In this document: one piece after another, positions 1 through 35,665 of the stretch
Numbering within the stretch: the stretch's first letter is position 1
How the letters are laid out: every line of letters starts with the position of its first letter
Assembly: GCF_963675165.1 (NCBI RefSeq)
Contig: NC_087385.1
Coordinates: 3,968,501-4,032,500, forward strand
Source: Halichondria panicea
Taxonomy: Eukaryota > Porifera > Demospongiae > Suberitida > Halichondriidae
DNA length: 64,000 nucleotides
Direction: 5' to 3'
The notes under the pieces: generated by a model
The model's database searches: none
Seen by the model: the letters and a program-made list of their open reading frames with translations, nothing else
What the model was told of the DNA's origin: nothing
Position numbers and translations under genes: made by a program

Positions 1-131
1 AAGTCTGTATCCATCAAGGTGGCTCTAAATCAGTTGTTCAGTTCATTTTTGTCTACCCTTGCGGTATGACCTTGAGAGCATTCAGTAGTGATACTGTTTG
101 TTCTCACACTTCCTGACAATGGCTTTCTTAT

Positions 132-1870: not shown

Positions 1871-2802
1871 CTCAGTCCACCCAAAAAACTTACAAAAGTG
1901 GAATTAAAAAGTTTTATGAGTTTTGTGCTAGGTTACCCCCTCAGTTTGTGTCACTCCCTATTACTCAATCTATGCTTTGCTTATATGTATCATATTTAGC
2001 TCGCAGTGGTCTATCATATTCCACTATCAATTCTTACCTCTCGGCATTGCGTCACCTGCATATCCTTCATAATTTTCCCGAACCTCAGCAAGCGGCTTGG
2101 CAAAAATTCATGCTAGTCAAGAGAGGCATTAGAAAAGAGAAAGCAATCTCTCACCCCCAAAAACCTAGGCTGCCTATTACCCCAGACATTTTGAGGCAGA
2201 TAAAAGCACTATGGTCTGTTGAACCAATACAACCAGATACAGTCATGCTTTGGGCTGCGAGCTGTTTGTGCTTTTTCGGTTTCTTCAGGTTGGGAGAAAT
2301 TACTTGCTCGTCTGCCAATGCAGTCAATCACAAGGACCTGCTCCTTGCTGATTTGGCAGTTGATAGCCATGCTGGCCCGACCTACATCTCTGTCACCTTG
2401 AAGCAGTCCAAGACAGACCAATTCCGGAGAGGTGCGCTTGTGATAATTGGCAGAACAGATGACGATTTATGCCCTGTAGCAGCCCTCTTACAATACATCT
2501 CGGTTCGAGGTACACATTCAGGCCCCTTGTTTATTTACGCCGATGGGAAGTTCCTGACAAAACAGAGCTTTGTTCCACGCATCAGGGAAGCCTTATCGGC
2601 ACTCGGCTTGAATAATACTCACTACGCTGGCCACAGTTTTCGTATCGGGGCAGCTTCAACCGCTGCCAAAGCGAATATTGAAGATTCAATGATAAAAACG
2701 TTAGGAAGATGGGAAAGCAGTGCCTTCCTGACGTACATTCGTACTCCACCAGCTCTGATAGCAAGGATGGCAAAAACACTATCATCCCCTACCACGGACT
2801 AG
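1816..2802 (+). CDS. Tyrosine recombinase (integrase) of the YR retrotransposon
   Basis: An open frame of 328 codons encodes a phage-integrase-fold recombinase that would insert a circular cDNA by tyrosine-mediated strand exchange. It has an N-terminal SAM-like core-binding part (roughly residues 10-105, QSTQKTYKSG), then the catalytic domain with the first Arg in FFRLGEI, the H-x-x-R box in GHSFRIG, and the Tyr nucleophile in TYIRTP near the C-terminus. Length is normal for Ngaro/DIRS recombinases. No ATG occurs near the beginning of the frame (it opens at TTG, 1816), and it overlaps the RNase H frame, so expression probably relies on frameshifting or on the upstream protein. No internal break is seen, unlike the RT part. 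Confidence 0.85.
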   Translation: MDVTTLEADVQRYFEQGLAQSTQKTYKSGIKKFYEFCARLPPQFVSLPITQSMLCLYVSYLARSGLSYSTINSYLSALRHLHILHNFPEPQQAAWQKFMLVKRGIRKEKAISHPQKPRLPITPDILRQIKALWSVEPIQPDTVMLWAASCLCFFGFFRLGEITCSSANAVNHKDLLLADLAVDSHAGPTYISVTLKQSKTDQFRRGALVIIGRTDDDLCPVAALLQYISVRGTHSGPLFIYADGKFLTKQSFVPRIREALSALGLNNTHYAGHSFRIGAASTAAKANIEDSMIKTLGRWESSAFLTYIRTPPALIARMAKTLSSPTTD

Positions 2803-4860: not shown

Positions 4861-5299
4861 TACTATAGTCTACCTAGATCTTACCAAACATGAACAAGGC
4901 TTGATAGCATAGGGCCCACACAAAAATATCTGACCTTAACAAGCTTGACAAAGCTTTATACCTCTTCCCTTGTTGTTCAGTCTTCAGAATAATGTTTTCT
5001 AAGCTTCAGAGAAGAGAGAAGCTTCAGCTAAGAGCCATTCCAATCGATTCCAATAATGATAAAACGGGAACTTTATCCTTTTCTTTTAGTGCCTTTAATT
5101 TGAGGTCACGCGATATTTAACTTTTTTGTAAAGCTGCCAATTTCCAAGCGCGAGGGCCTGAGAAACTACAAATTGACTTTGCATGGCCTTAATAGCACCC
5201 TGAAGTATTTTGTTTTGGGACGGATGTGCTAAAAACGATATTGTGTCTCTTAGTATAGTATTGAGATAAATAAAGTTCGTACATATTTCTCTGCCACAG
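4861..5299. other. Non-coding stretch upstream of the PP5 exons
   Basis: No gene, repeat or TPR-coding exon was recognised. PP5 proteins normally begin with three TPR repeats; they must lie to the left of the window beyond the retrotransposon, or be lost. Confidence 0.4.
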
Positions 5300-8200
5300 C
5301 TGTTGACAGTGGGTACGCGGGTCCAAGACTGGATGGAGAGATCACTGCGGGTTCAGTCATGCGTGAGCTGCTGGACTGGATGAGAAACCAAAAGATACTA
5401 CACAGAAAGTATGCCTTCAAGGTACAGTGTGTATTGTGTGTATGGCTGGAGAAAGTAATGTAATGGTAGTTGGACAGATCAGAGATAAAGTAAGGAAAGG
5501 GATTGGCAACGGTCGAAAAAATGTGACTATCCTTGATGCGCTACGTCATCGACTTTTTTTCATCTTTTGTAGCCTCCATTTATAGCTAAAAGTAAAAAAA
5601 CATGCCTAAGAATATCAAAATCAAGAATTTATGCAGCCTAGTTGATCAACAGAGACACAACAAAACAAGATATGTAGGTAAAACATCATAGGCTTACAGC
5701 AGTGCTTCTTAAAAGGGGCACAAACTAATATAACACTTTCTCGTCTTTTACAGCCTCCATTTTAGCATTTTTGGTAAAAAACATACAAAAGAGATTTAAC
5801 CAAGGAAATGTATGCAGGCCAGTTCGTCAACATAGACACAAATAAGCAGGATCTGTAGGCAAAACATCATTTGGCTACGGCAGTGCTTCTTAAAAGGGGG
5901 CACAGACCAATAATAACTAGTTTTCAAGCTCTAGAGCACCACAGTCAATTCTTCCACTCTTGGACTTCACTTTAAATAAAGCACAGGACACGTGTAGCCT
6001 TACTATACGCAATTCTAAAGTCTCATGAGACTAATAACTAACTAAAAGTAATATTACTTCATTTCGCGGGCGTTGTGCCGGGAAATAATGCGCATCAAGG
6101 ATGGTTGAGAGGAAGTCAATATGAATCAATGTGAAATGATCACGTGAGTTACTCCCGTTGCCAATCCCTCTATTACTCTATCTCTGGACAGATATCCATA
6201 GTTATTATCCAAGTTGTAATCGGCAAATTATTCTGTAGATTATTTTGGAAGTGAAACAATTTTCCAGACTCTACCCTCACTGGTGGATGTGACTATACCC
6301 GAGGCAAAGTACCCATTGTGTTTTGTAAATCTCCAAACGTTACTAGCAAATTATGTTCTTGTTCTGTTCACACAGTGCAACACGTTTACAGTTTACGATC
6401 TGTTAAAACTAAATGGCCTTCCATCGATCCCAAGACAACCCTTATGTATCCTCGAAAGTACATGTACCAGCTTCGCATACCGTATTTACTTGATTAAACG
6501 CCCGGGCATTTATTTTCTAGCAGCATCTGTAGAGGGGGCGTTTAAATGAGATGGGCGCTTATTCGAAACGGGCGTTTATTGTTTTGTCTACTTCAAACTC
6601 TTTTTGGCTGCTGCTACAGCTCTCAGCTTCAATCTTGAGCCGTAGGAGTGGTGTTTCTCCCTCTGTGTCCTCTATGCCATCATAAATAGTATCTATTTAT
6701 TCTATGCTGCCCTTGTTTCAGCTGGTTCCACGGGCGATTATTTAAGAGGGGCGTTTATTGACAAAGACAGCTTTTACCATGGGCGTTTAAACGAGATGGG
6801 CGTTTAATCAAGTAAATATATACGGTACATGTATTTGTAGGCAGCTGTAGTGAAACACTTGTATCAGCTAGTGTATTTGAATACTTGTTCCTTTTTTTTA
6901 GTCAACTAAATCGAGTAGTAACCTGTTAAGCCATTGAGTATGCATTTACTGCCATCAACCGAGTATTTTGACCCTTGACCTTGAGTAGCTATTCAATGGA
7001 GACTTTGTGGACAGAGGCTCGTTCTCGGTGGAAGTCGTTTTGACACTGTTTGGGTTCAAGGCCCTCTATCCTAACCACTTCCATTTGTCCAGAGGTGAGT
7101 TCAGTGAGCTGATGTACTAATTTTTACTGTGAAGACACTCTTTGCTAATGATAATTTCTGTAAAGCACCTCTTGGCATGCTATGTACATGTATGTATGAT
7201 TATTATGTGTTAGTATAAGCTTGATGTATTTTACCCTCTCCAACCCTCTGTAACCCAGGCAACCACGAGAGTGAAACGATGAACAAAATGTACGGGTTTG
7301 AGGGAGAGGTGAAGGAGAAATATAGCTCACAAATGGTCGAACTTTTCACTGAAGTCTTCAACTACTTGCCCCTGGCTCACATCATAGGTGGCAAGATCCT
7401 GGTGAGGTTGTACATGTACAGTACGTACGCATACTACATGTAGTTACTACATGTACACGTTACATGCATGCAGCATTGTCTCCGTTCTCATCCATACATG
7501 AAAATTCCATGCACAAATTGTATGTACTGAACTCTTTAGAACTCGGAATAACATTCAAATTTACCAGCACAGATGTTCGATACCCACAGTTACTTATCCT
7601 AATTCTGGTTTATGTAATCTACAGTATACCACCTTACACACAGGTGACTCATGGTGGGCTCTTCAAGGACGATGATGTGTTACTAGATGACATCAGAAAG
7701 GTGGACAGAGACAGACAACCTCCGGAAGATGGTATACACCTAATTTGGCTTGTTAATATGAATGCCTCAAACTTGTCATGCCTTTTGCAGGTATAATGTG
7801 CAATCTTCTCTGGTCTGATCCACAAATGCTGGTGTGTATATGACTTTTAATACATTACATTTCATTAAACGTTATACATGTACTAGCGTGTGTGTGTGAG
7901 TTGCTACCAAAACCACATTTCCCCTCTCATATGTACAGAATGGACGGTCCCCTAGTAAGAGAGGAGTGGGTACTCAGTTCGGGCCCAATGTCACAGAAGA
8001 TTTCCTCTCAAGAAATGGACTAGGTGAGGAGAGTCAGTGTTGGCAACTAGTATTTGAGAATGGGCGTTCTCCATGTACGTTTAAACTGCATGTAAACTTA
8101 TACAATATAGACAGTGAGAAAGCAAGAAAGCGCAACAACTAATACTTATTACGGAATGGGTTCTATTTATCAGAAACTTCTAATTACCCCAGACAGTTTT

Positions 8201-10574
8201 CTGAGCATTTTTCTTTTTGTATAAAACCAGGACATCATTTACTCGAGACGGCATGCAACAGCTTGCGAGCAAAAACTAAAGGGGGACCCGGAGGTAAAAA
8301 AGTACAGTAATATACAAATAAATGTACTGTACAGTACATAGTATTAGTATTTCCGGTTTGTTTTTGCTCGAATGTAGGGTTGATAGTCAGTTGCATGCCC
8401 TCTCTCTTTTTATACGCCCTTGGTACTATTAAACGTACACATGTACAATGTAGCTGATTCGCTGCAGCCACATTCCTGTTATTTTATTCCAGAAATCTCA
8501 CGTGCGCTGTAATAGCTCATTATACCTGGACAATTTATGGTATATTAGAACATGTACTGTATGGACCTACGTGTACCCACCCTGTGCAGCATGCACTTAT
8601 AGTTCTAAAGTTAAATTAGGTGGCAACAAAAATTCATTGAGCTCTTGGTGGCCAGCATAATTATATTATGTGCACTGTTTCAGAGCTGGTAATTCGCAGT
8701 CATGAGGTGAAACCAGAAGGATATGAAGTCAGTCACAATGGAAAGTGCATCACAGTGTTTTCAGCACCCAACTATTGGTACGCAAGTTACTCTAACTTAA
8801 AGAATTATTCGTTTTAATCCCTCCTCGTTTCTCCACCGTACAGTGACCAAATGGGCAACAAAGGAGCGTTCATCACACTGACTAAAGACCTGAAACCAGA
8901 ATTTACAGTCTACGAGGCAGTGGTGAGTCTTGCAAGTAATTTGTATGTACAGGTCATTATTAATTCATACATGCATATGAAATGTCATACTGTCTACAGT
9001 GGTTTTCCTTACCTTTGCAGGCTATACTGCAAGAGCACTGCAACCACAATGTAGTAAATATAGTATTTTGGTTGGCTTCTGTTATGATTGTTAGTAACAA
9101 GCCAACAAAATTACTTGCTATGGCCTGCAAAATGCAAACTGTAACTGGTTTTAATTTGGCAATTTCAAAACTGCCAAATTAGTGGACCTAATTGCTGTAG
9201 TAGCCTAAGACGTCAAATTAAAAATCGCCAAATAATTATAATAGCCGCTAAATGTTCCAGGTGTCTCATATTTTGTCTGACTGAAGTGATGGTAGCTCTG
9301 ATGGTAGCTCAGCTAACTTGTTGCTTGGTTCATTGTGGCAAAATGATATAAGCTAAAACTTGTATGTATAGCTATAGGGAGCGGAGGGCCTGTATTTACT
9401 AGGCTCAAAATTGGATATTTCCGAAAGCAGCTTGTTGACCTCAAGCATTATATAGAAGGAGTGCTGTGAAAGTAGTGCTGTGAAAGTAGAGTAGTAACCC
9501 CTTGAGTTGTGTGAAAAGTCTGCAATAGCCAGTATTTTACCCATCATTGATTTTTGTGATGTGTGGGTGGACTAAAATAACACAGACAGGTAATCACTAC
9601 ATTGTGGTTGCAGTGCTCTTGGAGTATAGCCTGCAAAGGTATGGAAAACCACTGTATCGGGTTCGAATGCAAGGTTCTTTGATTGTGAATTGCGAGTTTT
9701 TCAAAAGCAATTCGCAATAGTTAGAAACACCATAATTTATGTCGGCTTCTACAGTATCATTCTAAACCAGATCTACAGTAACATACGTATACTTATAGAA
9801 GGGCTTCTGGCAGTGTACGTACATGCAGCCTTGAAAGTTTGTGCGAACAGATGATGTAGCCTTCTCTGTGAGCCATAACTTGAGAAAGACTTTAGTTGGC
9901 CAATCCAAGATAATATGGCTAAAAGTCTATAGAAACTGTTAGTTTTTGTCGTATTGCAACTGTTGAGCGGTTACAGCTGGAATACACACACACACACACA
10001 CACACACAGTCAGCTTTACCATATTCCTCCTGCGGCCTCAAGGGGAATGCTAAAAGCCTTAGCAAAGTTGTAGTGAGTGGCCCCTCTATAAACTTGAATT
10101 TAAGCCTTTTGACAACAAGTGAGTGGCCCCTCTATAAACTGCAATTCTCTTGAATTTGAGCCTTTTGACAACAAATGAGCTTCTGTCTCATTAGCTCGTA
10201 CTTGTTATCAAACTTCCCTTAGCCTTGCCAGCAGATGGAGATGGTGGATATGGCGTATGGGAACGCCATTGCCTTAGTTTAGCTGTATATCCAGTAGAAA
10301 AGTTAATGTCTTGCTCACCAGCAAATGATCGTTAGCGATCGGCACACTAAAAAATCTGAACTGACTGCGAGACAACGGATATCCGATCGCTGAGCCTCTC
10401 TGCTCGCCCCAATAATGTTTGAAGCATACAAATTGCAGAAACCATTCCTTTTAAATGTTTCCTCCTCCCAGCTAAAAATCCTATAATTATGAAAGACTAT
10501 TCTATCCCATACAGCCTCACCCCAAGGTCAAAGCGATGCAGTACGCAAGTCCACTGTTTGGACTACTGTCATGA
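5300..10574 (+). CDS. PPP5C: PP5-type serine/threonine protein phosphatase, catalytic part, with a damaged exon
   Basis: Nine exons with consistent phases: 5300-5421, 6989-7094, 7259-7401, 7644-7731, 7791-7831, 7939-8023, 8684-8777, 8844-8922 and 10515-10574 (stop TGA). They encode PP5 landmarks in order: an HRKYAF linker, GDFVDRG, RGNHE, THGGL, LLWSDPQ, RSHEVK, SAPNYCDQMGNK and a C-terminal PHPKVK tail. PP5 dephosphorylates Hsp90 clients and signalling proteins; its N-terminal TPR domain is not in the window. Between 5421 and 6989 about 56 codons are expected, including the GDTHGQ metal-binding motif. Only fragments appear: an LPSLVDV stretch at about 6271-6309 and a [11 protein letters not shown] stretch at 6376-6455, in frames that cannot be joined and with GDTHGQ missing. 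So the locus is a pseudogene, or the assembly is wrong here. MITEs flank the damaged part. Confidence 0.85.
5474..6195. mobile_element. MITE with GGGATTGGCAACGG ends, in a PP5 intron
   Basis: Inverted ends of roughly 35 bp (AGAGATAAAGTAAGG..GGGATTGGCAACGG and its complement before 6195). Internally there is a diverged direct repeat with CTTCTTAAAAGGGG (near 5705 and 5885). The TIRs resemble those of 23472-23968 and 25995-26400. Confidence 0.6.
6478..6827. mobile_element. MITE with TACCGTATTTACTTGATTAA ends
   Basis: A 350-bp element with inverted ends beginning TACCGTA and GGGCGTTT sub-repeats near each end. It sits directly beside the damaged PP5 exon. Confidence 0.65.
8240..8428. mobile_element. 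Short MITE with GCATGCAAC ends in a PP5 intron
   Basis: Inverted arms GGCATGCAAC...GCGAGCAAAAACT and TTTTTGCTCG...GTTGCATGCC. The same arms bound the larger element at 12991-14240. Confidence 0.5.
8990..9655. mobile_element. MITE with ~60-bp inverted ends in the last PP5 intron
   Basis: Left end TACAGTGGTTTTCC..TTTGCAGGCTATACT..CACAATGTAGT and its near-perfect reverse complement at 9590-9655. No coding capacity is seen. Confidence 0.7.
9983..10008. repeat. CA microsatellite
   Basis: About 13 CA dinucleotides. Just downstream a ~60-bp segment with GAGTGGCCCCTCTATAAACT is tandemly duplicated (about 10073-10184). Confidence 0.8.
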
Positions 10575-11152
10575 ATTACTAGTGGTCTCATTGAATTTTT
10601 ATGTTTTATAACTACAAACTTATGTTATACAAAATCTTTATTGAATATAAAAACCAAATTGAATGTTGACTGCTATAGACTACTCGTTCATTCTGCATAG
10701 CTCCTCCTACTACCACAGCTGCTTCCCCGACTGTGATGTGACCCCACCGAACCAGCACGTGAGGAAGACCTCTCGTATTGTTTGTAGGAAAACAACTCTT
10801 CGGAAGGTTTCTGGTCAGCATGTGTGTAATCCTATAGAATACAAAATATAAGAGACATTAAATCCCAGATACAATGAACCACTCAGTGGCGGATCAAGGA
10901 TTTTTGTCAGGGGGGTTCCAGCGGCAATTAAGACAGGGCTCAAGCGGGGCAGACTCCGCGTCATCACTTCTATGACTGCTCAGCATACACATTAAAACAT
11001 CAGATTTGCCTAAAAAAGCTCAGCACTCCTTAGAGACAGTCAGTGCTGGAGGGGAGGTTTAGAGCTGCGCAAACAGAGCTTCGCAGGAGAACTAAAAGTA
11101 AGTGATAAGTGAATATGAAAGCTCCCACTCAATTATGTCTATGGATCAACCC
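10575..11152. other. 3' flank of PP5 with a MITE end
   Basis: After the PP5 stop there is AT-rich DNA. At 10888 begins GTGGCGGATCAAGGATTTTT followed by a G run, the typical left end of the element family seen complete at 31981-32759. The matching right end was not found. No gene recognised. Confidence 0.4.
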
Positions 11153-12727: not shown

Positions 12728-12893
12728 GCTACACTTGTTTCTTTGTGAGGGTTGTAAAGTGCTGAGTCAGCAATATTCTAGCTATAAGCGCTAATATGAA
12801 CGCCTATAGTTATAAGCGCTATATATAAGCGCTTATAGCTAGAATATTGCTGACTAAGCACTTTACAACCCTCACAAAGAAACAAGTGTAGCT
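12728..12893. repeat. 166-bp near-perfect palindrome
   Basis: The arms (GCTACACTTGTTTCTTTGTG.. and complement) pair over almost the whole length with TATAAGCGCT motifs at the centre. A foldback element that can extrude a cruciform. Confidence 0.75.
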
Positions 12894-14923: not shown

Positions 14924-17900
14924 CATATGAAGCTGGTTCACATCTGCCCCCTTGTCAATGAACAATAGTGCCGTCTCAGTGTGGCCTCCCTTAAAGGCAG
15001 CTGCTAAGAATGGGGATTCCCCATACTGAAAAAAAATTTAGTACGTACTTTGCATTATTGTTAGTCATCATACCGACGATCAGTGACTTGTTTATGAGCT
15101 AGCTAGGTGACACCTACCTCATCAAGCTGGTTCACATCTGTTCCCCTGTCAATCAACAACTTTGCAGTCTCAGTGTGACCTCCCTCACAGGCAGCCAGGA
15201 GTGGGGATTTCCCAAACTGTAAAAACATTTGGTATGTATCTTACATTACCGTTAGGAACTATAGAAAGTCAGTGACTTGTTTTATGAGCTAGCTAGGTGA
15301 CACTTACCTCATTTACATCTGCTCCCCTGTCAATTAACAACTTTGCGGTCTCAGTGTGACCTCCCTCACAGGCAGCCAGGAGTGGGGATTTCCCAAACTG
15401 TAAAAACATTTGGTATGTATCTTACATTACCGTTAGGAACTATAGAAAGTCAGTGACTTGTTTTATGAGCTAGCTAGGTGACACTTACCTCATTTACATC
15501 TGCTCCCCTGTCAATTAACAACTTTGCGGTCTCAGTGTGACCTCCCTCACAGGCAGCCAGGAGTGGGGATTTCCCTAACTGTAAAAACATTTGGTACATA
15601 TCTTACATTACTGTTAGGAACTATAGAAAGTCAGTGACTTGTTTTATGAGCTAGCTAGGTGACACTTACCTTATCAAGCTGGTTTACATCTGCTCCCCTG
15701 TCAATCAACAACTTTGCAGTCTCAGTGTGACCTCCCTCACAGGCAGCCCGGAGTGGGGATTTCCCTAACTGTAAAAAACATTTGGTACGTATCTTACATT
15801 ACTGTTAGAAAGTCAGTGACTTGTTTTATGAGCTAGCTAGGTGACACTTACCTTATCAAGCTGGTTTACATCTGCTCCCCTGTCAATCAACAACTTTGCA
15901 GTCTCAGTGTGACCTCCCTCACAGGCAGCCAGGAGTTGGGATTTCCCATACTGTAAAAACATTTGGTACGTATCTTACATTACTGTTAGCAACTATAGAA
16001 AGTCAGTGATCAGTGACTTGTTTTACGAGCTAGCTAGGTGACACCTACCACATCTGCTCCCCTGTCAATCAACAACTTTGCAGTCTCAGTGTGACCTCCC
16101 TCACAGGCAGCCAGGAGTGGGGATTTCCCAAACTGTAAAAAACATTTGGTACGTATCTTACATTACCGTTAGGAACTATAGAAAGTCAGTGACTTATTTT
16201 ATGAGCTAGCTAGGTGACACTTACCTTACCAATCTGGTTTACATCTGCTCCCCTGTCAATCAACAACTTTGCAGTCTCAGTGTGACCTCCCTCACAGGCA
16301 GCCAGGAGTGGGGATTTCCCAAACTGTAAAAACATTTGGTACGTATCTTACATTACTGTTAGAACTATAGAAAGTCAGTGACTTGTTTACGAGCTAGCTA
16401 GGTGACACCTACCACATCTGCTCCCCTGTCAATCAACAACTTTGCAGTCTCAGTGTGACCTCCCTCACAGGCAGCCAGGAGTGGGGATTTCCCAAACTGT
16501 AAAAAACATTTGGTACGTATCTTACATTACCGTTAGGAACTATAGAAAGTCAGTGACTTGTTTTATGAGCTAGCTAGGTGACACTTACCTTACCAAGCTG
16601 GTTTACATCTGCTCCCCTGTCAATCAACAACTTTGCAGTCTCAGTGTGACCTCCCTCACAGGCAGCCAGGAGTGGGGATTTCCCAAACTGTAAAAACATT
16701 TGGTACGTATCTTACATTACTGTTAGAACTATAGAAAGTCAGTGACTTGTTTACGAGCTAGCTAGGTGACACCTACCTCATTAAACATGTTTATGTCTGC
16801 TCCCCTGTCAATCAACAACTTTGCAATCTCAGTGTGACCTCCCTCACAGGCAGCCAGGAGTGGGGATTTCCCAAACTGTAAAAACATTTGGTACGTATCT
16901 TACATTACTGTTAGCAACTATAGAAAGTCAGTGATCAGTGACTTGTTTTACGAGCTAGCTAGGTGACACCTACCACATCTGCTCCCCTGTCAATCAACAA
17001 CTTTGCAGTCTCAGTGTGACCTCCCTCACAGGCAGCCAGGAGTGGGGATTTCCCAAACTGTAAAAAACATTTGGTACGTATCTTACATTACCGTTAGGAA
17101 CTATAGAAAGTCAGTGACTTGTTTTATGAGCTAGCTAGGTGACACTTACCATACCAAGCTGGTTTACATCTGCTCCCCTGTCAATCAACAACTTTGCAGT
17201 CTCAGTGTGACCTCCCTCACAGGCAGCCAGGAGTGGGGATTTCCCAAACTGTAAAAACATTTGGTACGTATCTTACATTACTGTTAGAACTATAGAAAGT
17301 CAGTGACTTGTTTACGAGCTAGCTAGGTGACACCTACCACATTAAACATGTTTATGTCTGCTCCCCTGTCAATCAACAACTTTGCAATCTCAGTGTGACC
17401 TCCCTCACAGGCAGCCAGGAGTGGGGATTCCCCAAACTGTAAAAAACATTTGGTACGTATCTTACATTACCGTTAGGAACTATAGAAAGTCAGTGACTTG
17501 TTTTATGAGCTAGCTAGGTGACACTTACCATACCAAGCTGGTTTACATCTGCTCCCCTGTCAATCAACAACTTTGCAGTCTCAGTGTGACCTCCCTCACA
17601 GGCAGCCAGGAGTGGGGATTTCCCAAACTGTAAAAACATTTGGTACGTATCTTACATTACTGTTAGAACTATAGAAAGTCAGTGACTTGTTTACGAGCTA
17701 GCTAGGTGACACCTACCACATTAAACATGTTTATGTCTGCTCCCCTGTCAATCAACAACTTTGCAATCTCAGTGTGACCTCCCTCACAGGCAGCCAGGAG
17801 TGGGGATTTCCCAAACTGTAAAAAACATTTGGTACGTATCTTACATTACCGTTAGGAACTATAGAAAGTCAGTGACTTGTTTTATGAGCTAGCTAGGTGA

Positions 17901-20900
17901 CACTTACCTTACCAAGCTGGTTTACATCTGCTCCCCTGTCAATCAACAACTTTGCAGTCTCAGTGTGACCTCCCTCACAGGCAGCCAGGAGTGGGGATTT
18001 CCCAAACTGTAAAAACATTTGGTACGTATCTTACATTACTGTTAGAACTATAGAAAGTCAGTGACTTGTTTACGAGCTAGCTAGGTGACACCTACCACAT
18101 CTGCTCCCCTGTCAATCAACAACTTTGCAGTCTCAGTGTGACCTCCCTCACAGGCAGCCAGGAGTGGGGATTTCCCAAACTGTAAAAAACATTTGGTACG
18201 TATCTTACATTACTGTTAGCAACTATAGAAAGTCAGTGATCAGTGACTTGTTTACTAGCTAGCTAGGTGACACCTACCTCATTTACATCTGCTCCCCTGT
18301 CAATCAACAACTTTGCGGTCTCAGTGTGACCTCCCTCACAGGCAGCCAGGAGTGGGGATTTCCCAAACTGTAAAAAACATTTGGTACGTATCTTACATTA
18401 CTGTTAGCAACTATAGAAAGTCAGTGATCAGTGACTTGTTTACTAGCTAGCTAGGTGACACCTACCTCATTTACATCTGCTCCCCTGTCAATCAACAACT
18501 TTGCGGTCTCAGTGTGACCTCCCTCACAGGCAGCCAGGAGTGGGGATTTCCAGAACTGTAAAAACATTTGGTACGTATCTTACATTACTGTTAGCAACTA
18601 TAGAAAGTCAGTGATCAGTGACTTGTTTTACGAGCTAGCTAGGTGACACCTACCACATCTGCTCCCCTGTCAATCAACAACTTTGCAGTCTCAGTGTGAC
18701 CTCCCTCACAGGCAGCCAGGAGTGGGGATTTCCCTAACTGTAAAAACATTTGGTACGTATCTTACATTACCGTTAGGAACTATAGAAAGTCAGTGACTTG
18801 TTTACGAGCTAGCTAGGTGACACCTACCACATCTGCTCCCCTGTCAATTAACAACTTTGCAGTCTCAGTGTGACCTCCCTCACAGGCAGCCAGGAGTGGG
18901 GATTTCCTAAACTGTAAAAACATTTGGTACGTATCTTACATTACTGTTAGAACTATAGAAAGTCAGTGACTTGTTTACGAGCTAGCTAGGTGACACCTAC
19001 CTCATTAAACATGTTTATGTCTGCTCCCCTGTCAATCAACAACTTTGCAATCTCAGTGTGACCTCCCTCACAGGCAGCCAGGAGTGGGAATTTCCCGAAC
19101 TGTAAAAACATTTGGTATGTATCTTACATTAATGTTAGGAACTATAGAAAGTCAGTGACTTGTTTTATGAGCTAGCTAGGTGACACTTATCTCATTTACA
19201 TATGCTCCCAAGTCAATCAACAACTGTGCGGTCTCAGTGTGACCTCCCTCACAGGCAGCCAGGAGTTGGGATTTCTCATACTGTAAAAACATTTGGTACG
19301 TATCTTACATTACTGTTAGCAACTATAGAAAGTCAGTGATCAGTGACTTGTTTACTAGCTAGCTAGGTGACACCTACCTCATTTACATCTGCTCCCCTGT
19401 CAATCAACAACTTTGCGGTCTCAGTGTGACCTCCCTCACAGGCAGCCAGGAGTGGGGATTTCCTGAACTGTAAAAACATTTGGTACGTATCTTACATTAC
19501 TGTTAGCAACTATAGAAAGTCAGTGATCAGTGACTTGTTTTACGAGCTAGCTAGGTGACACCTACCACATCTGCTCCCCTGTCAAACAACAACGTTGCAG
19601 TCTCAATGTGACCTCCCTCACAGGCAGCCAGGAGTGGGGATTTCCCGAACTGTAAAAACATTTGGTACGTATCTTACATTACTGTTAGCAACTATAGAAA
19701 GTCAGTGATCAGTGACTTGTTTACTAGCTAGCTAGGTGACACCTACCTCATTTACATCTGCTCCCCTGTCAATCAACAACTTTGCGGTCTCAGTGTGACC
19801 TCCCTCACAGGCAGCCAGGAGTGGGGATTTCCAGAACTGTAAAAACATTTGGTACGTATCTTACATTACTGTTAGCAACTATAGAAAGTCAGTGATCAGT
19901 GACTTGTTTTACGAGCTAGCTAGGTGACACCTACCACATCTGCTCCCCTGTCAATCAACAACTTTGCAGTCTCAGTGTGACCTCCCTCACAGGCAGCCAG
20001 CAGTGGGGATTTCCCGAACTGTAAAAACATTTGGTACGTATCTTACATTACTGTTAGAACTATAGAAAGTCAGTGACTTGTTTACGAGCTAGCTAGGTGA
20101 CACCTACCACATCTGCTCCCCTGTCAATCAACAACTTTGCAGTCTCAGTGTGACCTCCCTCACAGGCAGCCAGGAGTGGGGATTTCCCGAACTGTAAAAC
20201 ATTTGGTACGTATCTTACATTACTGTTAGAACTATAGAAAGTCAGTGACTTGTTTACGAGCTAGCTAGGTGACACCTACCTCATTAAACATGTTTATGTC
20301 TGCTCCCCTGTCAATCAACAACTTTGCAATCTCAGTGTGACCTCCCTCACAGGCAGCCAGGAGTGGGAATTTCCCGAACTGTAAAAACATTTGGTATGTA
20401 TCTTACATTACTGTTAGGAACTATAGAAAGTCAGTGACTTGTTTTATGAGCTAGCTAGGTGACACTTACCTCATTTACATCTGCTCCCCTGTCAATTAAC
20501 AACTTTGCGGTCTCAGTGTGACCTCCCTCACAGGCAGCCAGGAGTGGGGATTTCCCTAACTGTAAAAACATTTGGTACATATCTTACATTACTGTTAGGA
20601 ACTATAGAAAGTCAGTGACTTGTTTTATGAGCTAGCTAGGTGACACTTACCTTATCAAGCTGGTTTACATCTGCTCCCCTGTCAATCAACAACTTTGCAG
20701 TCTCAGTGTGACCTCCCTCACAGGCAGCCCGGAGTGGGGATTTCCCTAACTGTAAAAAACATTTGGTACGTATCTTACATTACTGTTAGAAAGTCAGTGA
20801 CTTGTTTTATGAGCTAGCTAGGTGACACTTACCTTATCAAGCTGGTTTACATCTGCTCCCCTGTCAATCAACAACTTTGCAGTCTCAGTGTGACCTCCCT

Positions 20901-23900
20901 CACAGGCAGCCAGGAGTGGGGATTTCCCTAACTGTAAAAAACATTTGGTACGTATCTTACATTACTGTTAGGAACTATAGAAAGTCAGTGACTTGTTTTA
21001 TGAGCTAGCTAGGTGACACTTACCTTATCAAGCTGGTTTACATTTGCTTCCCTGTTAATCAACAACTTTGCAGTCTCAGCGTGATCTCCCTCACAGGCAG
21101 CCAGGAGTGGGTTCCCTAACTGTAAAAAACATTTGCTTACTAGACTGGAAACTAGTTGGGCGGACCCCTACCGTCCCTGACGGGAGGTAGGGTTTCAAGC
21201 CTATGTCAGGATTTGTCTTGCTTAATTATGTAACACGCTGATAAGCAGCTATGAATAATTATTTTATTCTATGAATATTATCATTCTGAAGTGGGTGTTA
21301 ACCAATTTTACCTTGCTTGAGGTTGCGCAACCGGACGTGACACAGACCACAGTAGAAATGCTGCAATCTAATTCGGCTGCAACTATAGTTGCAGTAAAGA
21401 CAAATCCTGACATAGGCTTGAAACCCTACCTCCCGCCAGGGACGGTCGGGCTCCGCCCAACTAACTGGAAACCACTCCCTTTGCTCTGGGATGACTTTAG
21501 ATAGTAGACTGGAAACCACTCCCCTTCTCCCGAGAGAAGGGGAGCGGTTTCTAGTCTACTATCTAAAGTCATCATACCGATGATCAGTGACTTGTTTAGA
21601 GCAAGCTAGCCTCGAGGCCAGGCCGAGTCTCGAGGCTAAGAGCAAGCTACACCTACCTCATCAAGCTGGTTTACATATGCTCCCCTGTCAATCAACAACT
21701 GTGCAGTCTCAGTGTGACCTCCCTTAGTGTGACCTCCCTTACAAGCAGCCAAGGGTGGGGATGACTGTACAAAAAATTTCGTATGTACCTTAAATTCATA
21801 AATACAGTAGACTCTTGCTACTATAAACCTAAACTTCCTGCAGAAAAGGGTGGGGGTATTTTCAAGAGGGTTTGGTACAGATAATTATAAGTATTATTAT
21901 AGAATGTTTTTTGAGCATCAAACTGTTGTTGTTGGAACTATATCATAATGGAACCAAGAGTTTATGATAGAGAGAGAGTATCGAACGTAGGCATACTGTG
22001 TATCAGATGTATGCGGAGAGTAACGTGACTTCCTGTATCTGTCACAAGCTTGGAATTTGCACACTGACCAATCCAAGCGTGGGTGATGTAATCTATCAAC
22101 CCATCCAAGTGTGGGTGATGTAATCTACTTTCTTGATAGATGACATCACCCACACTTGGATTGGTCAGTGTGCAAATTCCAAGCTTGTGACAGATACAGG
22201 AAGTCACGTTACTCTCCGCATACATCTGATACACAGTATGCCTACGTTCGATACTCTCTCTCTATCATAAACTCTTGATGGAACTGTATCTGTACCTATA
22301 TAATAAAACTGTACCTGTACTGTTTATGTGTGCTAGACATAACTGTAGATAACTGTAGGTGTTATTACCCGAAGCACAAATAGCATGCCAAGAAAACATG
22401 ACTAGCATTGTAGATGGCTTCCGAGACTGCTCCTGCTGGAGATGCAGGTCAAGACGCGATTGACAAGTTTGCAGGCAGGAAAGACAAAGCTCTTTGCTTT
22501 AGTGGTAGATCTATTGTCCGTGGAGCCCTCGTTGTTGTACTTGCTGGGGGAACCGGTTGCAGTATGGAAGAAGCTCGGTGATCAGTTTCAGAAAAAATCA
22601 TGGGCTAACAAGTTGGAGTTGAGACGCAGGTTGTATTCGTTGAAACTTGATGAAGGTGGCTCGGTGCAGGCACATATCAAAACAATGATGGAGGTTTTTG
22701 AAGGACTCTCGGTAGTTGGTGATCCGATTTCAGAGGAAGACCGTGTTGTGCACCACGGTATGACATACTCGTACTGTAACATGGTTTACGTACACTCAAC
22801 TGCCATATACTCCTCTTTATGTACTCCATGGTGGATCAAGTGAAGAGTGTGAGCTAGATGACTAATATGTACACGCATTATAGAATGTCTACTTCTCAGC
22901 ACAGGAACAATGGCTAATATCCAGCTATCCCAACAATGCAACAGACGAGACTGGACAGCGTGAGGTAAGGGTTTAAACCCTCTTTTTGTCTTATAATCTT
23001 GTCCTACTCACAGGACTGGAGTGTATATCTGCTCGTTCAAGCGTTGTTTCTGGTAGCTCAGAGGCATCAAGAGAATCCACGTTTCTCAAGCAAGATTTAC
23101 CTGAGTTACGAATAGGGTTACGAGGGGCCTAGAATCAGCGAGGTCCAGCAGCCTGCTCTAATTTGAGGCATTCAATCATCCTGAAGTTGCCCTGGGTCAT
23201 TATAATCGTGTTGCAGCACAACGACAACTCCCCTTGTGAAGCAGCCTTCCTATGTGCCTCTTTTGTATACTCACTCTGTGAATTTTTCCTTGTCAATTAT
23301 TGAAATATTTTTACCGACTACACAACGCATGCGCAGACAACTAGTACCAGGCCTAGTTGTTTGCCTAACCGTTATAAAAGCGAAAACTCGGCCTGGGATC
23401 GAGGCTAAGAACACATCATGAATGACTTCATGTGTTCTAGCTGCTGGTTCCTTTCACATCTGTGTTCCACCATAGATTAAAGAGTTAGAGGGATAGGAAA
23501 CGGTTGGTATTCTTGAATACATCCGTGCTACGCTGCGGTTTAATCGAGGCCATCACAACAATACTTATTTCTACACCCAGTGCATAATAAACTGCAAGTA
23601 ACTGTGCTTAGTGCGTGCAACTCACTTATATTTCAAGGTCTATACCTATTGTAGTAGTCATAACCAGCACGCTTATAGCTCTAAAACAGCCTTGTGGGAA
23701 CATGTATATACAGTAACTTTATTGGAAAGTCTCTTGGTGTGGTCAGTCATTAGCAAGTATATACTATACACGTGGCTCATGGACTAGGCGTGTTATAAAT
23801 TGCTGAAAGAGATGATGTCTCGAGGAAACACAACTTTTTTATTTTGAGGGAGTTACCCGGCATAATAGCCTCGTTCATAGGGTGCGTAACGCGGATAGTT

Positions 23901-26900
23901 TTCAAGGCTCCACTGCATCACGTGCACCATATTCCCGTTTCCTATCCCTCTAACTCTTCAATCTATGGTTCCACCAACCACAGAGACTATTCAGAATGAG
24001 CTAACTTTGAATTTTTGCCAAGCTGTTCACAATATCTCAATCTAGTCCAAACTTACTGAGTCAGTACATTCCTAATTTATCTCCTAGTAACAAGTTCTAA
24101 TGAACTCTGCTTTGGAAATCCTGAAAAAAATCACCCTTCAATGGTGGGTCAAGTTTTGGTGTCATCATTATGAATCTCATTAATATTTATAATTATGAAT
24201 TTCATGTTTTTGTGGAAATCCTGAAAAAAATCACCATTCAATGGTGGAGTTTTAGGGTGTCATCATTATGAATCTCATTAATATTATACAATGTTTTTGT
24301 GATGTCATCCTTAGAAATACCATTAAAATACTTGCGATATGTATATTTCCTGTCTTGTCTTGCAAATACTGAAAACTTGGGCTGATGTCAGCACTAATAC
24401 TTTGTTGCTTTATTGCTTTTGTAAAAAATGCAGGCACTCGTGCAGTTACTGGCACAGACTCGTTATTCCATGGGATAATGTATTTATTGCTTAGCAACCA
24501 AAATGCAGGTTGAATCTGCGCATGCGTGACATGCGGTTGTTTTGTCAACCAGGAGAATGCGTAGCAACAAAATTGAGTTTCTCCCAGTTGAAGACGAGTT
24601 TAAGAGAAAGAAAACGGCTAAAACAAAGAAATAAGACTCTAGAACATCACGAAAGCTTGCAGAAGGCTACTAAAAGATTTTGTAGAGAACAGACAAGGAA
24701 AAAAGACAAGAAAAACGTTGAAAACCAGCAACCCATTTTGAAAATGGATAGTTCTGAAGGATAAACAGTGTGTGCTTGCTTTCTATCATGCTCCAGTGTA
24801 TCAGAAGAGGAAACATGGACCGCTATAGCAAAAGAAAGTGTGACAACCGTTTTGAAGCCAAAACGACTTACAAGAGCCACATGGTAGTGCAGTCACTTCT
24901 ACATGTGCAATATTCCACTCAAAGCACTCATTCTCCCAACACTAATGCCTGTTAGATGCATTAAATATGACAGCTAAACTGAACACTGACACAACCTCCC
25001 GATCCTCAGCCTCACTGTAAAAGAACAAAGAAGTTATACAGAGCATCAAAGAGCATCAGAAAACATGATAAACATTGCATTGCATGATCATAAGTATTAT
25101 TTTCTTGTCTCTCACTGCTGAAAACGTTTCAAAGAATCACTGCCTAGTGTGCAATAACAAGCGTGCAATAATACTTCCGGGTGTGCGATATGGAAAAATA
25201 TCTGCACACTTGGTGACGAGTCGCTTCCTGTGCAATTTGAATGTAAAACGCTGACGTCAGCACTTATTAAAAAGCACTTTGAATGTAAAACGCTGACGTG
25301 CTTTTTAATAAGTGCTGACGTCAGCATTCAAATCGCACAGGAAGCCACTCATCACCAAGTGTGCAGATATTTTTCCATATCGCACACCCGGAAGTTATTG
25401 CATATAATATCCTTATTTGGAATGCAAGATTTTTTCGCAGTTTTTCAGTATAATATAGTGAGAGAAACAATAATTTATAGGGTGTCATACAGGATTTTGA
25501 AGTAGAGGGGGGAAATAAGAAAAAAGTTTGCTAAAAAAAAGGTCGATCAACTAGCTGTTATTTCAATACCCTGTTAGTATGTAAAATTGCCAGTTATGGA
25601 CACTCAGTCATACAACTAGTACTTGAATGTAAATTTTAGGGGGGATATCCCCTTCCCCCCTGTATGACACCCTGATCAGTCTCTTTCATGTTTTCTGATG
25701 CTCTGTATCACTTCTTTGCTCTTTTTCAGCGAGGCTGTGGATCAGGAGGTTGTCAGTGTTCAGTTTAGCAGTCATAAATAATGCATCGAACAGGCATCAT
25801 GCAGTGTTGAGAGAATGAGTGCTTTGAGCGGAATATTGCACATGTAGAAGTGTATTGCACCACCATTAAGCCTGTTCAAGCTCTTGTAAGTAGCTAAAAC
25901 CATGCTAAAACTCCTCTTCAGCTTCTAAAGTTGGGCTGGGCCTATCAACCTCTAGTGTTCGTCATTTAAGGAAACACATTAGTTGTGAATTTGTCCATAG
26001 ATTGAAGAGTTAGAGGGATTGGAAACGGAGTGGTGCACGTGATGCTTTTACATTGAATCTGCAATGGAGCCTCGAAAACTATCTGCGTTACGCCCTATGA
26101 ACAAGGCTATTAAGCAACATTTGTGCCGGGTAACTCCCTCAAAATAAGAAAGTTGTGTTTTCTCAAGACATCATCTCCTTCAGCGATTTATAACATGCTT
26201 AGTCCATGAGCTACATGTAGTACTTGCTAATGACTGACTACACCCAGTAAAAAGAAACATTTCCAGTAAAGTTATGTTCCCAAGAGCTAATGGAACATGT
26301 AGCGTGTAAAGCGTGCTGGTTATAATTACTACACCTAAGTGAGTTGCATGTTGCATTGGATGTTACTCGAGGATACCAACCACATTTAGCTATAATTATA
26401 AACTGCTGTGGCTAGTATAAATACTGATAGCTAGTACTTTTCACTGCTATAAAATCTATCCGCACACTCTTTATTCCCGTTAAAATACACATGGGGGACA
26501 AAGAGTGTACCCTACACTATTTATATATGGGAGACAAAGAGCGGCCCTACACTCTTAAGTCTGTACCTTACATATTAAACTTCTTAAAATAATACAGTAG
26601 ACTCTCACAAACCTAATAGAGCAGGGTACATGAAATTTCCGGGTTAACGGATGTCATTAAAAATGAAGTCACTTGCACGTGTACAGATTATAATTATTAC
26701 TGTGGCCAAAAAGGGAAACTGCTATAGCTAGATCAGAAGCCCATAAAGAGAAGGAGCGGCTAACTTCAACGTATACTCGGGGATCACGTTTCGTAATTAC
26801 CCGTGAAACCGAACTTCCTTGTATGGAAGCGACTAAGTGCTTGCAAACCGCAGCCCTGCATGGCGTATAACACGTGTAGAGATTCAACCACTTAAGTAAC

Positions 26901-29833
26901 TCTGCATATATGGAAATGCGGTCATAACCACTTACGAAACGTGATCCCCGTAGTTAGCCGCTCCTTCTCTTTATGGGCTCCTGGGTAGATTAATCTTTAA
27001 GTTTTTTATCTCATTTTCTCTCTAATAGAGTGAGTCTTGTAAGCTCTTTTAGTTTTGCAGGTAGCCATTGTACTGAGAGAATGTTAGATTTAGCAAAGCA
27101 AGTTAAGTGCACATGCGCACTACTCTATTCTACTGACGTGCCCCTCCTCTTTTCCTTTTTGCCATTTTGTCCGGATTTGCGAGCTTTTGAACTAAAGGGG
27201 TCCGGATTAGTGAGGGTCTACTGTAGCACAATACTGTTGATCAGTGATTTGTTTACGAACCAGTTAGGTGACACCCACCTTATCAAGTTGGTTCACATCT
27301 GCTCCCCTGTCAATCAACAACTTTGCAGTCTCAGTGTGACCTCCCTCACAGGCAGCTAGGAGTGGGGATGTCCCATCCTGTACAAAACATTTGGCACTAT
27401 ATTGTATCCTAGCAACTAATTAGGTGAAAACTCACCCTAACAAGCTGGTTCACATCTACTCCCCTGTCAATCAACAACTGCGCAGTTTCAGTGTGACCTC
27501 CCTCACAGGCAGCTGGGAGTGGGGATGTCCCATCCTGTACAAAACATTTGGTACCTTACACTATATTGTATCCTAGCAACTAATGACTTCTTGTCCCTTC
27601 AAATAGTATAGTTAATCAGTGGATTTGTTTAGGAGTACTAGCTAGGTGAAAACTCACCCTAACAAGCTGGTTCACATCTGCTCCCCCCTTGTCAATCAAC
27701 AACTTTGCGGTCTCAGTGTGACCTCCTTCACAGGCAGCTAGGAGTGGGGATGTCCCATCCTGTAACTATTATGCACCTTATATTATTATTTCTCCTAGTA
27801 TATATTGATTCAAACATCAAGTATCTATTATTAGCAAACTTTGCAAGTGTATGACATCACAATCGTAAAGTTAGATTGCAAATTGTCTCTCATTTGCAAA
27901 TATTTTTCCTCCAAAAACATTGTAGTAATACGGTATTTAAACCTCTTTCGCAGGCTCTCCTTTTTCTTGTTCTTTTGTCACACAGGTCAATAAGATAAAA
28001 TACGGTAAGAATTGGAGGAACAAAAGAAAGAAAGAACTGTGAAAGAAAAAGGAGACTTCTCCTTTTTCGTTGTCTCCCCCTTCTTTTTTTTTGTTCCTCC
28101 AATTCCTCCTGTATTTTTTCTTAGAACAGAAAAAGGAGAGGCTGCAAAGGAGGCTAGTAATACGGTACATCCTGCTTAATTATATATATACATTTGATAA
28201 TCAAGAACTGGCCAATGCATGTAAATTCTCAGTTTGATCTCCCACAATTATGCAAACATAATTATGAGCTATAATTTATTATCAGTACGCTTGACCCTAT
28301 TTACCTTCGATCTACAATCCACACTTGCTCCGTGTTCCATGAGAGACGCCACTTCTGAGATCGACCCTTTCAAACACGCTAGAATTAGCTGATCTGATAG
28401 CTCCTATATTGTTGAAAATAAATCTAGTTTGACACGCTTCTTTATCACTACATGCATACATTAATTATACAAACCGGACTTACGAGAAATTTGATCCCAA
28501 TCTCACTAAAAGCTAAGTGATGCTCGTGAGACACTGGCAAGATACTTTTAGCAACAGCAGCAGAAACCATGAGGTGAAGCTCGACACAGCCATTCTTAAT
28601 CAAGCATAGTCGCAGAGCTGAAAACCGCAAACCAAACACCTTTGCTACTTCGTTTTGGAGTGCTTGCACTCCTTCCAGTGTTTCAACACCTGTTGCACAT
28701 TTGAGAGCAAACAGCTTACCTTTTTCGGGAACATTGCATCCACTAGAAAATACTAATGGTGGTATTTCAAATACATTTCGCTGACAAAAGGTATGCAAAT
28801 CTCTTAGGTATTCTTCCAGTAGCCTATGGTCATCAGAGCACCCATGATGCTTAATGAGGTGTTCCAGTAAATGGTAATTGTAGAACGAGATGTAGTTATT
28901 ACTTTGAAGAATCAAGAACATCTCAGACACTGAACTTGCCCCAAGTAACTTCTCTTGATGTTCTAAACTGTCAAGCACTTTTACTTCATTGTCTATTTCT
29001 CTGAAAGCCCTGAGGCTTAAGATGGAGTGTTTGATTTCTTCTAGAAGGATATTTTGCCTTTTTAATGACTCTCGAATATAAATCGAAAAATCAGCAAATT
29101 TTGTGAGAATTTCTTTCGTATCAGATATCAATCTTTGTTGCAGATCAATAATATCATCCTTTTCAAGACCCTTTACATCCATGTACGGAAATAGCTTGCT
29201 GTATCCTTCAATTGATCTCGTTCTATGTGGACAGCCCTCTTCAGAAAAAAAGCGCTCGAGAGTGCATTCATTGCAGAAAGGACAGATAAAGCTCCTTAGT
29301 TCAGCTGCAGTAGAGTGAAATGACTCGTCTCCAGAAGAATCATTGTCTTCAGTTCCTTCTGTGAGTTTTGACGTAAGTTGATGTGATGTCAGTTGTTCAA
29401 GCTCTCTATAGTCACATTCAGCACTAAATTTTGCTTGATGTGATTGTTCAGGCTCGGGATCCCCGGCCCCAACTATACCACATTCAGTGTCGTAGGCTTC
29501 TTGTAGGATTCTGACAATATCGTCAGTAGAGGGGCCCTTTATAATGTCAACAAAGCCATGGAAAACATTGGGATCACGTTCAATCCGATCGATAATAGTG
29601 TCCACAAGTTTCTGAGCTTTCACTTCATCCAGTATTGACATGTTTCGGGTGAAATCGCGAACAAAAGTGTTTACATACCCCTTTGCATAGAGGGCATCAC
29701 AGATGGCGCCAGGTTGCTCTTTCACAGTAGCAATTACATTCTCATAGCACTTTCGAAATGCTAAGTACTCAGGAGTGGTGTCCCTGATAGATGATTGTTT
29801 GGGAGCACGACTTCCAGACAGTAAATTTCCCAT
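14924..29833 (-). CDS. CARD-like, Cys-cluster, multi-ankyrin protein (about 1,670 residues)
   Basis: Exon 1 (28484-29833, ATG at 29833) encodes 450 residues. It starts MGNLLS, a fit to N-myristoylation. Residues about 22-100 are an all-helical stretch patterned like a CARD/death fold. An acidic linker follows, then a C184-x2-C187-x2-C190...C201-x-H203 cluster that may bind zinc, helices (about 220-290) and a further unrecognised domain (300-450). All downstream exons start and end in phase 0 and encode ankyrin repeats: 28305-28403, 27658-27759, 27436-27534, 27279-27377, then 35 exons in 14924-21764. The first exon appears as a 461-codon ORF only because it reads through its donor (GTAAGT, 28483). 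Such architectures suggest an intracellular innate-sensing or scaffold adaptor at membranes; this is inference. The 3' terminal exon is not certain. Confidence 0.75.
21141..21475. mobile_element. MITE with inverted arms inside the ankyrin array
   Basis: The arms from TAGACTGGAAACTAGTTGGG and TAGGGTTTCAAGCCTATGTC pair with the sequence ending at 21475. It separates the 35th ankyrin exon from the others. Confidence 0.6.
21492..21571. repeat. 80-bp near-perfect hairpin
   Basis: TGACTTTAGATAGTAGACTG to its complement, with CTCCCCTTCTC/GAGAAGGGGAG at the centre. Confidence 0.7.
21607..21638. mobile_element. TAGCCTCGAG micro-MITE, 32 bp
   Basis: TAGCCTCGAG...CTCGAGGCTA flanked on both sides by AGAGCAAGC, a likely 8-9 bp target duplication. 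Confidence 0.65.
21956..22276. repeat. ~320-bp near-perfect palindrome (foldback element)
   Basis: The arms run from AAGAGTTTATGATAGAGAG to the complement CTCTCTATCATAAACTCTT. A TGGGTGATGTAATCTA segment is repeated near the centre. No coding capacity. Confidence 0.85.
22414..22758 (+). pseudogene. Ty1/copia-type gag fragment
   Basis: Starts with ATG (MASETAPAGDAGQ), then shifts frame near 22478-22495. From there the copia gag (UBN2-type) signature VWKKLGDQFQKKSWANKLEL is clear up to EEDRVVH at about 22758, where similarity stops. No zinc knuckle, integrase or RT follows; the next bases belong to a dispersed repeat. Relic of an LTR retrotransposon. Confidence 0.75.
22800..23390. repeat. Dispersed repeat, second copy of 4180-4860
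   Basis: Inverted relative to the first copy; shares ATGGTGGATCAAGTGAAG, ATCCAGCTATCCCAACA and the GACTGGAGTGTA and TGCAGCACA segments. Confidence 0.6.
23472..23968. mobile_element. MITE with AGAGGGATAGGAAACGG ends
   Basis: Ends ATAGATTAAAGAGTTAGAGG..AAACGG and the complement before 23968. A copy with only one clear end lies at about 25995-26400 in the opposite orientation. Confidence 0.65.
24114..24292. repeat. Two-copy tandem duplication
   Basis: A segment containing GGAAATCCTGAAAAAAATCA and TCATCATTATGAATCTCATT occurs twice about 100 bp apart. The flanks 23969-24884 hold no recognised gene; an 84-codon basic open frame (24510-24764) has no recognisable domain. Confidence 0.6.
24885..25860. 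mobile_element. Element with ~180-bp inverted ends and an internal foldback
   Basis: Left arm 24885-25080 (CACTTCTACATGTGCAATATT..) is repeated inverted at 25687-25860. Inside, 25163-25402 is a second, nearly perfect palindrome with TGACGTCAGC motifs, so one foldback lies within another. Confidence 0.65.
25995..26400. mobile_element. Partial inverted copy of the MITE at 23472-23968
   Basis: Shares the AGAGTTAGAGGGATTGGAAACGG end, TATCTGCGTTACGC and CGGGTAACTCCCTCAAAATA. The distal terminus is not seen. Confidence 0.5.
26595..27223. mobile_element. Pogo-type MITE with a nested palindromic MITE (26737-26981)
   Basis: Ends CAGTAGACTCTCACAAA and GAGGGTCTACTG, both flanked by TA. Inside, arms with AGCCCATAAAGAGAAGGAGC and its complement mark a second element. 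Confidence 0.6.
27952..28145. mobile_element. MITE with AGGCTCTCCTTTTTCTTG ends in an ankyrin-gene intron
   Basis: Copy of the family at 11609-11728, with two extra internal inverted segments around AAGGAGACTTCTCCTTTTT. It lies between ankyrin exons 27658-27759 and 28305-28403. Confidence 0.6.
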
Positions 29834-35591: not shown

Positions 35592-35665
35592 CCAGTCTAC
35601 ATTAAAGGAAAAGAACAATAGCTAATTAGTTTTGGAGCGTCAATGTGACTTTGGGGGATTGTAAA

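Follow-up and report, generated by a model that had tools for sequence, protein, structure and literature searches.

The 64,000-nucleotide window considered here (contig C9, positions 3968501–4032500, of the 131-Mb, 39-contig assembly of the sponge Halichondria panicea) holds, on its minus strand between 10688 and 29833, a predicted gene of 41 exons, whose 5,160 nucleotides (nt) form a single frame of 1,719 amino acids with its sole stop at the end. Each of the 40 non-terminal exons has a length divisible by three and contains no stop. The predicted protein opens with a CARD-like domain, followed by a Cys-rich segment, a TRADD-N-like domain, 39 ankyrin-type repeats and a short tail. The window gene (paralog C) is one of three genes arranged in tandem within 105 kb, for which tblastn recovers arrays of 28 ankyrin exons in paralog A (array at about C9:3897.9–3905.5k), 26 in paralog B (3922.8–3928.3k) and 35 in the window gene. 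The parts of the gene model, in their predicted order, are:

28484–29833, minus strand: exon 1, the first coding exon, open for 450 codons, with CARD-like, Cys-rich, helical and TRADD-N-like parts and a phase-0 GT donor at its end
29480–29782, minus strand: CARD-like domain, residues 18–118, supported by hhalign against a CARD profile built within the genome, with no Pfam match
29225–29287, minus strand: Cys-rich segment ICPFCNEC...GCP, residues 183–203, seen in the alignment and zinc-finger-like by eye
28484–28723, minus strand: TRADD-N-like alpha/beta region, residues 371–450, with an invariant Gly-Cys at residues 415–416
28305–28403, minus strand: ankyrin-type exon, phase 0, a weak match (Pfam Ank E 0.15, below cut-off)
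27658–27759, minus strand: ankyrin exon of 102 nt, phase 0 (tblastn and exon model)
27436–27534, minus strand: ankyrin exon of 99 nt, phase 0 (tblastn and exon model)
27279–27377, minus strand: ankyrin exon of 99 nt, phase 0 (tblastn and exon model)
21657–21764, minus strand: first array exon, 108 nt, divergent, found in paralog B and not among the array exons of paralog A (tblastn)
15118–21119, minus strand: 33 near-identical ankyrin exons of 84–99 nt with introns of 83–98 nt (Tandem Repeats Finder, tblastn and exon model)
19191–19280, minus strand: array exon with an AT donor replacing GT; the corresponding exon of paralog B is changed likewise
14924–15025, minus strand: last array exon, 102 nt, divergent (tblastn and exon model)
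10688–10831, minus strand: proposed terminal exon, Ser/Arg-rich, 47 amino acids and a stop, with an AATAAA at 10637–10642, 46 bases past the stop

A sequence-only reading of this DNA had described 35 near-identical phase-0 ankyrin exons at 14924–21764, which lie on the minus strand. The count, the lengths in multiples of three and the phase all stand; the near-identity extends to 33 of them, with one more divergent exon at either end, and the 35 comprise 26 distinct sequences at the DNA level and 23 at the protein level. Their lengths are 84 nt (9 exons), 90 (8), 96 (1), 99 (15), 102 (1) and 108 (1); the acceptor is AG in 35/35 and the donor GT in 34/35, the remaining one being the AT-donor exon, and the junctions are in phase 0. 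Tandem Repeats Finder independently delimits a 188-bp array at 14942–21135, and Pfam, run on five joined array repeats, returns Ank_2 (E 3.7e-47) and Ank (E 1.4e-42) in five stretches. The 84- and 90-nt exons encode repeats of 28 and 30 residues, respectively, that are without part of the ankyrin finger. Donors, acceptors and introns show little difference from one end of the array to the other, and the claim that introns are as alike as exons is borne out by the diversity of exons versus introns in all three genes (0.061 vs. 0.056 in C, 0.074 vs. 0.072 in A and 0.086 vs. 0.099 in B). Beyond what had been noticed earlier, four more ankyrin-type exons lie upstream of the array (27279–27759 and 28305–28403).

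The frame-neutrality that had been claimed for these exons likewise holds: when the AT-donor exon is omitted, the model still yields one frame with one stop, of 1,689 amino acids. Across the three arrays, 79/79 units have an exon length divisible by three, whereas intron lengths leave remainders of 2, 1 and 0 on division by three in 35, 22 and 22 of them, a count from which 4 of 83 units were left out as the donor pattern was not found. Over the whole 144 kb there are 97 ankyrin matches, of which 90 could be delimited automatically, with lengths in multiples of three in 90/90. The seven others, read by eye, consist of two exons with AT donors (one in C and one in B) and five in paralog A: one (120 nt) that carries an in-frame insertion, a second whose GT donor is unusual, a pair that have lost their acceptors, and the last exon, which is without a donor. 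In the pair without acceptors (L004 and L003, at window-relative positions −65525 and −68800), AG has become AC, and the donor is either missing or severed by a ~2.4-kb insertion; for these two exons, skipping would be the only option. A non-coding satellite was considered and rejected, as the exon lengths hold the frame while the intron lengths do not.

At the 3' end, the terminal exon of paralog A has a 9-amino-acid (27-nt) in-frame insertion that keeps frame and stop; in paralog B, this exon was not recovered by an exact-word search. No further exons were found between 10832 and 14923 under strict splice rules, and because of that strictness an additional C-terminal exon could have been missed.

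The comparison between the three tandem genes indicates how such arrays change. When the window gene is compared with paralogs A and B in 400-base steps, the window between 26.2 and 29.8 kb is nearest to A (90.9–99.5%), while 20.6–24.2 kb is nearest to B (92.5–100%), with A matching poorly or absent from 21.4 kb on; 9.0–10.2 kb is again nearest to B (99.5–100%), 12.2–14.6 kb is matched by A alone, and for 24.2–26.2 kb the comparison does not decide between them. The window gene is thus a mosaic of A and B. At the level of single units, C19099 of the window array is identical to B-41778 of paralog B, and within C there are five pairs of identical units, including C20749 and C15768, which lie 4,981 bp apart. 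Since identical units occur far apart in C and across C and B, there has been exchange both within and between arrays. Differences in repeat number are accompanied by exchange between paralogs, as in the repeat arrays of fungal receptors under concerted evolution, and the rapid copy-number change that the sequence-only reading had envisaged finds support in the differing array counts and in the mosaic structure.

Two observations on the neighborhood belong with this comparison. A degraded CARD-like exon piece with stop codons, at 37171–37434 and 38055–38129 (minus strand), represents a fourth, dead copy within the window. At 5189–8935 (plus strand), there are exons resembling, by eye, a PP5-type serine/threonine phosphatase; this stretch is partly repeated beside A and B, and therefore the duplicated block reaches beyond the receptor gene.

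The N-terminal exon, whose protein is 98.4% identical to that of paralog A, had earlier been called CARD-like, with a comparison against CARD and Death profiles put forward as the check. The outcome depends on the method. Pfam returns no domain over the cut-off for exon 1 and 20 relatives (21 members), its CARD model (PF00619) has no match in the window protein, and none of the 48 CARD matches in the genome (43 of them over the cut-off) falls at the listed loci of the exon 1 family, as compared by eye. In contrast, hhalign comparison of 12 family sequences with a profile built from 14 of the 43 genomic CARD loci over the cut-off gives a probability of 94% (E 1.4e-7, 71 columns), with controls of at most 2.4% for column shuffles (30 trials), 0.1% for a reversed profile, 2.6% for a 14-sequence Death profile and 0.6% for the other helical region of exon 1. 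This comparison places the N-terminal domain in the Death-like superfamily; its CARD-like identity is supported by profile–profile comparison, not by Pfam. Neither the PDB sequence search nor AlphaFold added confirmation. Three profiles of exon 1 (A1, A2 and A3) produced no convincing PDB match, the APAF1 CARD appearing only at E 0.29; the best match, of profile A2 to Sin3 (E 0.0019), covers one helix pair at positions 50–84 and was judged to be chance or helix bias. AlphaFold, run without an alignment on two pieces of exon 1, gave predicted local distance difference test scores (pLDDT) of 45.6 and 46.3, which are unusable, and Foldseek found no match at E 0.001 for the first of these pieces. 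The Cys-rich segment matched no family.

Judging from faint profile matches in its relatives, exon 1 has a resemblance to TRADD-N in its last part. In a search of the whole genome, the Pfam model TRADD-like_N (PF20694) yields eight matches, all below the cut-off (best E 0.044), of which seven lie at the corresponding place in relatives of exon 1, the window gene not being among them; as a control, the same model matched in 1 of 14 genomes, also below the cut-off. In one relative (L038) it reaches E 0.0072, again below the cut-off, and in another (L037) a Pfam Death domain over the cut-off lies ahead of the TRADD-N-like region. The published TRADD-N motif is a small residue plus Ser in the beta2–beta3 turn (Kaur et al. 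2021, PMC8195603). Here an invariant Gly-Cys (18/18 aligned relatives) stands in place of that motif, and the region is therefore named TRADD-N-like rather than TRADD-N. No NACHT or NB-ARC domain was detected in exon 1 at E-values up to 10, and the model joins exon 1 straight to the ankyrin exons.

Exon 1 belongs to a large family, matching at least 118 stretches of the genome, which fall into at least about 90 loci once stretches lying no more than 2.5 kb apart are joined; with 94 of 262 candidates scored, these counts are lower bounds. In the two relatives that were examined, the ankyrin repeats are likewise carried by phase-0 exons wherever these can be delimited. One of these relatives, on contig C5 (L031:7678–9828), has four ankyrin exons spaced 683 bp apart, the three units compared being 98.7–99.6% identical; going by these sequences, it is an independent amplification of ankyrin exons of the same kind, based on a different 683-bp unit. 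Genome-wide, there are also at least 150 matches to the Death domain (150 of 503 candidates scored).

The distribution of variation within the repeats bears on what such turnover might achieve. The analysis delimited 82 of the 89 array exons and fitted 78 to a 33-residue frame, on which variation peaks at residues 28–33 and 1–4, i.e., the beta-hairpin fingers; the mean entropy is 1.13 in the fingers versus 0.22 and 0.20 in the helices, which ranks first among 33 circular shifts, with the shortened exons adding some false variety at positions 2–4 and 30. Counted as the minimum number of changes over 51 exons of 99 nt and 78 introns, the 24.2 finger sites have undergone at least 28 nonsynonymous changes and the 51.8 core sites at least 21, compared with at least 7 synonymous changes for 23 sites and 41 changes for 81 intron sites. 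The fingers thus change faster than the introns (one-sided p 0.0008). This sequence pattern hints at selection for a varied binding face but does not prove it.

These patterns lead us to favor, with moderate confidence, the view that this is a sponge gene combining Death-like, TRADD-N-like and ankyrin parts, that it was amplified recently, and that recombining phase-0 exon cassettes alter the length of its solenoid and the order of the fingers. The conserved N-terminal exon would hold the putative signaling and switch domains, and the C-terminal solenoid would be built of ankyrin repeats, each encoded by a single phase-0 exon that is paired with a short intron hardly differing from one unit to the next. 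As the repeating unit comprises an exon and an intron (~190 bp), units have been duplicated, lost and exchanged within the array and among the three paralogs, probably by unequal crossing-over and gene conversion; because the single-repeat exons are in phase 0, none of these events would harm the frame, and growth and shuffling at the DNA level would therefore be favored. Length changes that stay inside a spliced exon are always multiples of three, and a dead exon, such as that with the AT donor, might be skipped with the frame unharmed. Altered finger residues and repeat number would change the binding face of a solenoid that senses a ligand, with the CARD-like and TRADD-N-like parts passing the signal on. 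Alleles and paralogs would then be where diversity lies, and splice variants would contribute to it secondarily at most. An immune function for the window gene is suggested by analogy: a role in innate recognition is plausible because the architecture matches that of proteins proposed to be immune by Kaur et al. (2021).

Several observations weigh against this interpretation. The 41-exon gene and its splicing are predictions from genomic sequence alone, and the copy-number differences seen are those between paralogs of one assembly; an assembly error in such an array is also possible. The 14 changes between exon 1 of A and C in 1,350 nt comprise eight nonsynonymous and six synonymous ones (dS 0.021, dN 0.008), with no clear sign of purifying selection. 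The broken exon 1 frame of paralog B and the two paralog A array exons without a splice acceptor fit decay as well as they fit turnover, and in 17/35 of the window's array exons the encoded repeat is cut down to 28 or 30 residues and may stack poorly. Nonsynonymous change in the core is about as frequent as change in the introns (p 0.44), and the repeats may therefore be weakly constrained; moreover, the ratio of nonsynonymous to synonymous changes does not differ between finger (28:3) and core (21:4; p 0.69), and diversifying selection is therefore not established. Finally, for the first 81 nt, the pN/pS values of C, A and B are 0.51, 0.94 and 2.27, respectively.

Much of this is what one would see if the array had grown by replication or recombination slippage and were now becoming a pseudogene, its length and sequence changing without present function. 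The broken exon 1 of B, the dead splice sites in all three genes, the shortened repeats, the core nonsynonymous change at a rate close to that of the introns, the degraded N-terminal fragment at 37171–37434 and the many mobile-element remains nearby all accord with such a decaying expansion, which is the alternative that survives best. We consider it unlikely all the same, since decay sits poorly with a window exon 1 that is open for 450 codons, 40/40 internal exons in frame without a stop, the unbroken rule of three in exon units set against its absence in introns, and a terminal exon whose frame survives a 27-nt insertion in A.

A second possibility is that cells pick subsets of the 35 exons, deriving many receptor forms from one gene by combinatorial splicing. 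In arthropod Dscam and similar exon-choice loci, constant parts flank a tandem series of look-alike exons from which the choice is made. With every exon in phase 0, any subset would remain in frame, and the exon without a proper donor would have to be skipped if the gene is used; the layout makes splice-form diversity possible without demonstrating it. Unlike in Dscam, the exons here are near-identical, and the spliced product could contain all of them in frame. A Dscam-like choice ranks low, since the introns and splice sites are alike throughout the array and leave no exon-specific signal visible; there are, furthermore, only 23 distinct repeat proteins, differing mainly in the fingers, and with repeats so alike exon skipping would mainly alter length. 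We regard combinatorial splicing as distinctly improbable. Least probable is a fixed structural protein, with a long constant solenoid serving as a spring or scaffold in which repeat number is of little importance: near-identical repeats in full frame would indeed form a regular 39-repeat solenoid, but the CARD-like and TRADD-N-like N-terminus shared by many related genes, the focusing of variation on the binding fingers and the differing repeat numbers of close paralogs all speak against it.

Returning to the favored reading of a cassette-recombining receptor gene, its architecture is already known, for it has been described in another sponge, Amphimedon queenslandica, where 357 TRADD-N proteins mostly carry one to three Death-like domains, then TRADD-N and then a variable part, among the commonest forms of which are ankyrin repeats; these proteins are proposed to be immune (Kaur et al. 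2021, eLife, PMC8195603, in the excerpts used here). The two sponges share the succession of an N-terminal Death-like domain, a TRADD-N-like region and ankyrin repeats, as well as a large lineage-specific expansion (here at least about 90 loci), and they differ in the invariant Gly-Cys and the sub-threshold Pfam scores of the present family. The same excerpts are silent on exon arrays and repeat turnover. A different parallel is offered by fungal NOD-like receptors (NLRs) whose ANK, TPR or WD repeats are highly conserved and for which polymorphism was shown among wild isolates (Dyrka et al. 2014, PMC4986451). Common to both are repeats that are nearly identical, exchange of units inside a paralog as well as from one paralog to another, differences in repeat number and variable residues in the ankyrin beta-hairpin; unlike those fungal proteins with their NACHT or NB-ARC domains, the present gene model has no detected nucleotide-binding domain, its repeats are separate exons, and the data come from one individual. 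No report of ankyrin exon arrays in a sponge gene was found in the open full-text literature, a scope that leaves subscription papers and preprints outside and on which no claim of absence is made. It is thus the exon-level layout, not the receptor type, that was not found in print.

Sponges reject non-self tissue and house dense microbial communities, and to our knowledge the genes for individual-specific recognition in sponges are poorly characterized. By analogy with the fungal genes, one might go further and picture an intracellular recognition system in which cassettes are shuffled among tandem receptor genes and exons are skipped freely with regard to frame, such that individuals, and perhaps cells, would differ in receptor length and finger order. 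Such a system would be an animal equivalent of the fungal NLRs that shuffle their repeats and might serve in self/non-self or microbe recognition; this extension is speculative, and we hold it to be quite unlikely in its full form. If the recombination of frame-neutral ankyrin exons does alter the binding part of Death-fold receptors, it would give animals a variety of receptors resembling that of fungal self/non-self genes. The array, at ~7 kb, is short enough for long-read genotyping, and, even with some other function, paralogs of 28, 26 and 35 cassettes would make a good natural case for gauging the rate at which such arrays change.

The remainder of the window is rich in mobile elements. 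At 117–2802 (plus strand), a tyrosine recombinase (Pfam Phage_int_SAM) comes after open frames that are reverse transcriptase-like by eye, and together they form what we take to be a retroelement of the DIRS or Ngaro type. An inverted, 98.3% identical copy of a 3.5-kb stretch that ends at 864 lies ~25 kb away. An open frame of 607 amino acids at 33798–35621 (minus strand), with DDE_1 and HTH_psq domains, is an uninterrupted pogo-like transposase. By eye, there are also long palindromes that could fold back on themselves at 22045–22240, 12730–12880 and 25150–25400; these are probably small mobile elements. In keeping with a sponge genome, a silicatein-type query gives 29 matches elsewhere in the assembly, and four of the six short loci examined show CG(S/A)SYAF, with Ser replacing the catalytic Cys, a replacement that we presume to mark silicatein as found in silicatein sponges; ordinary cathepsins occur elsewhere in the genome beside these silicatein-type loci.

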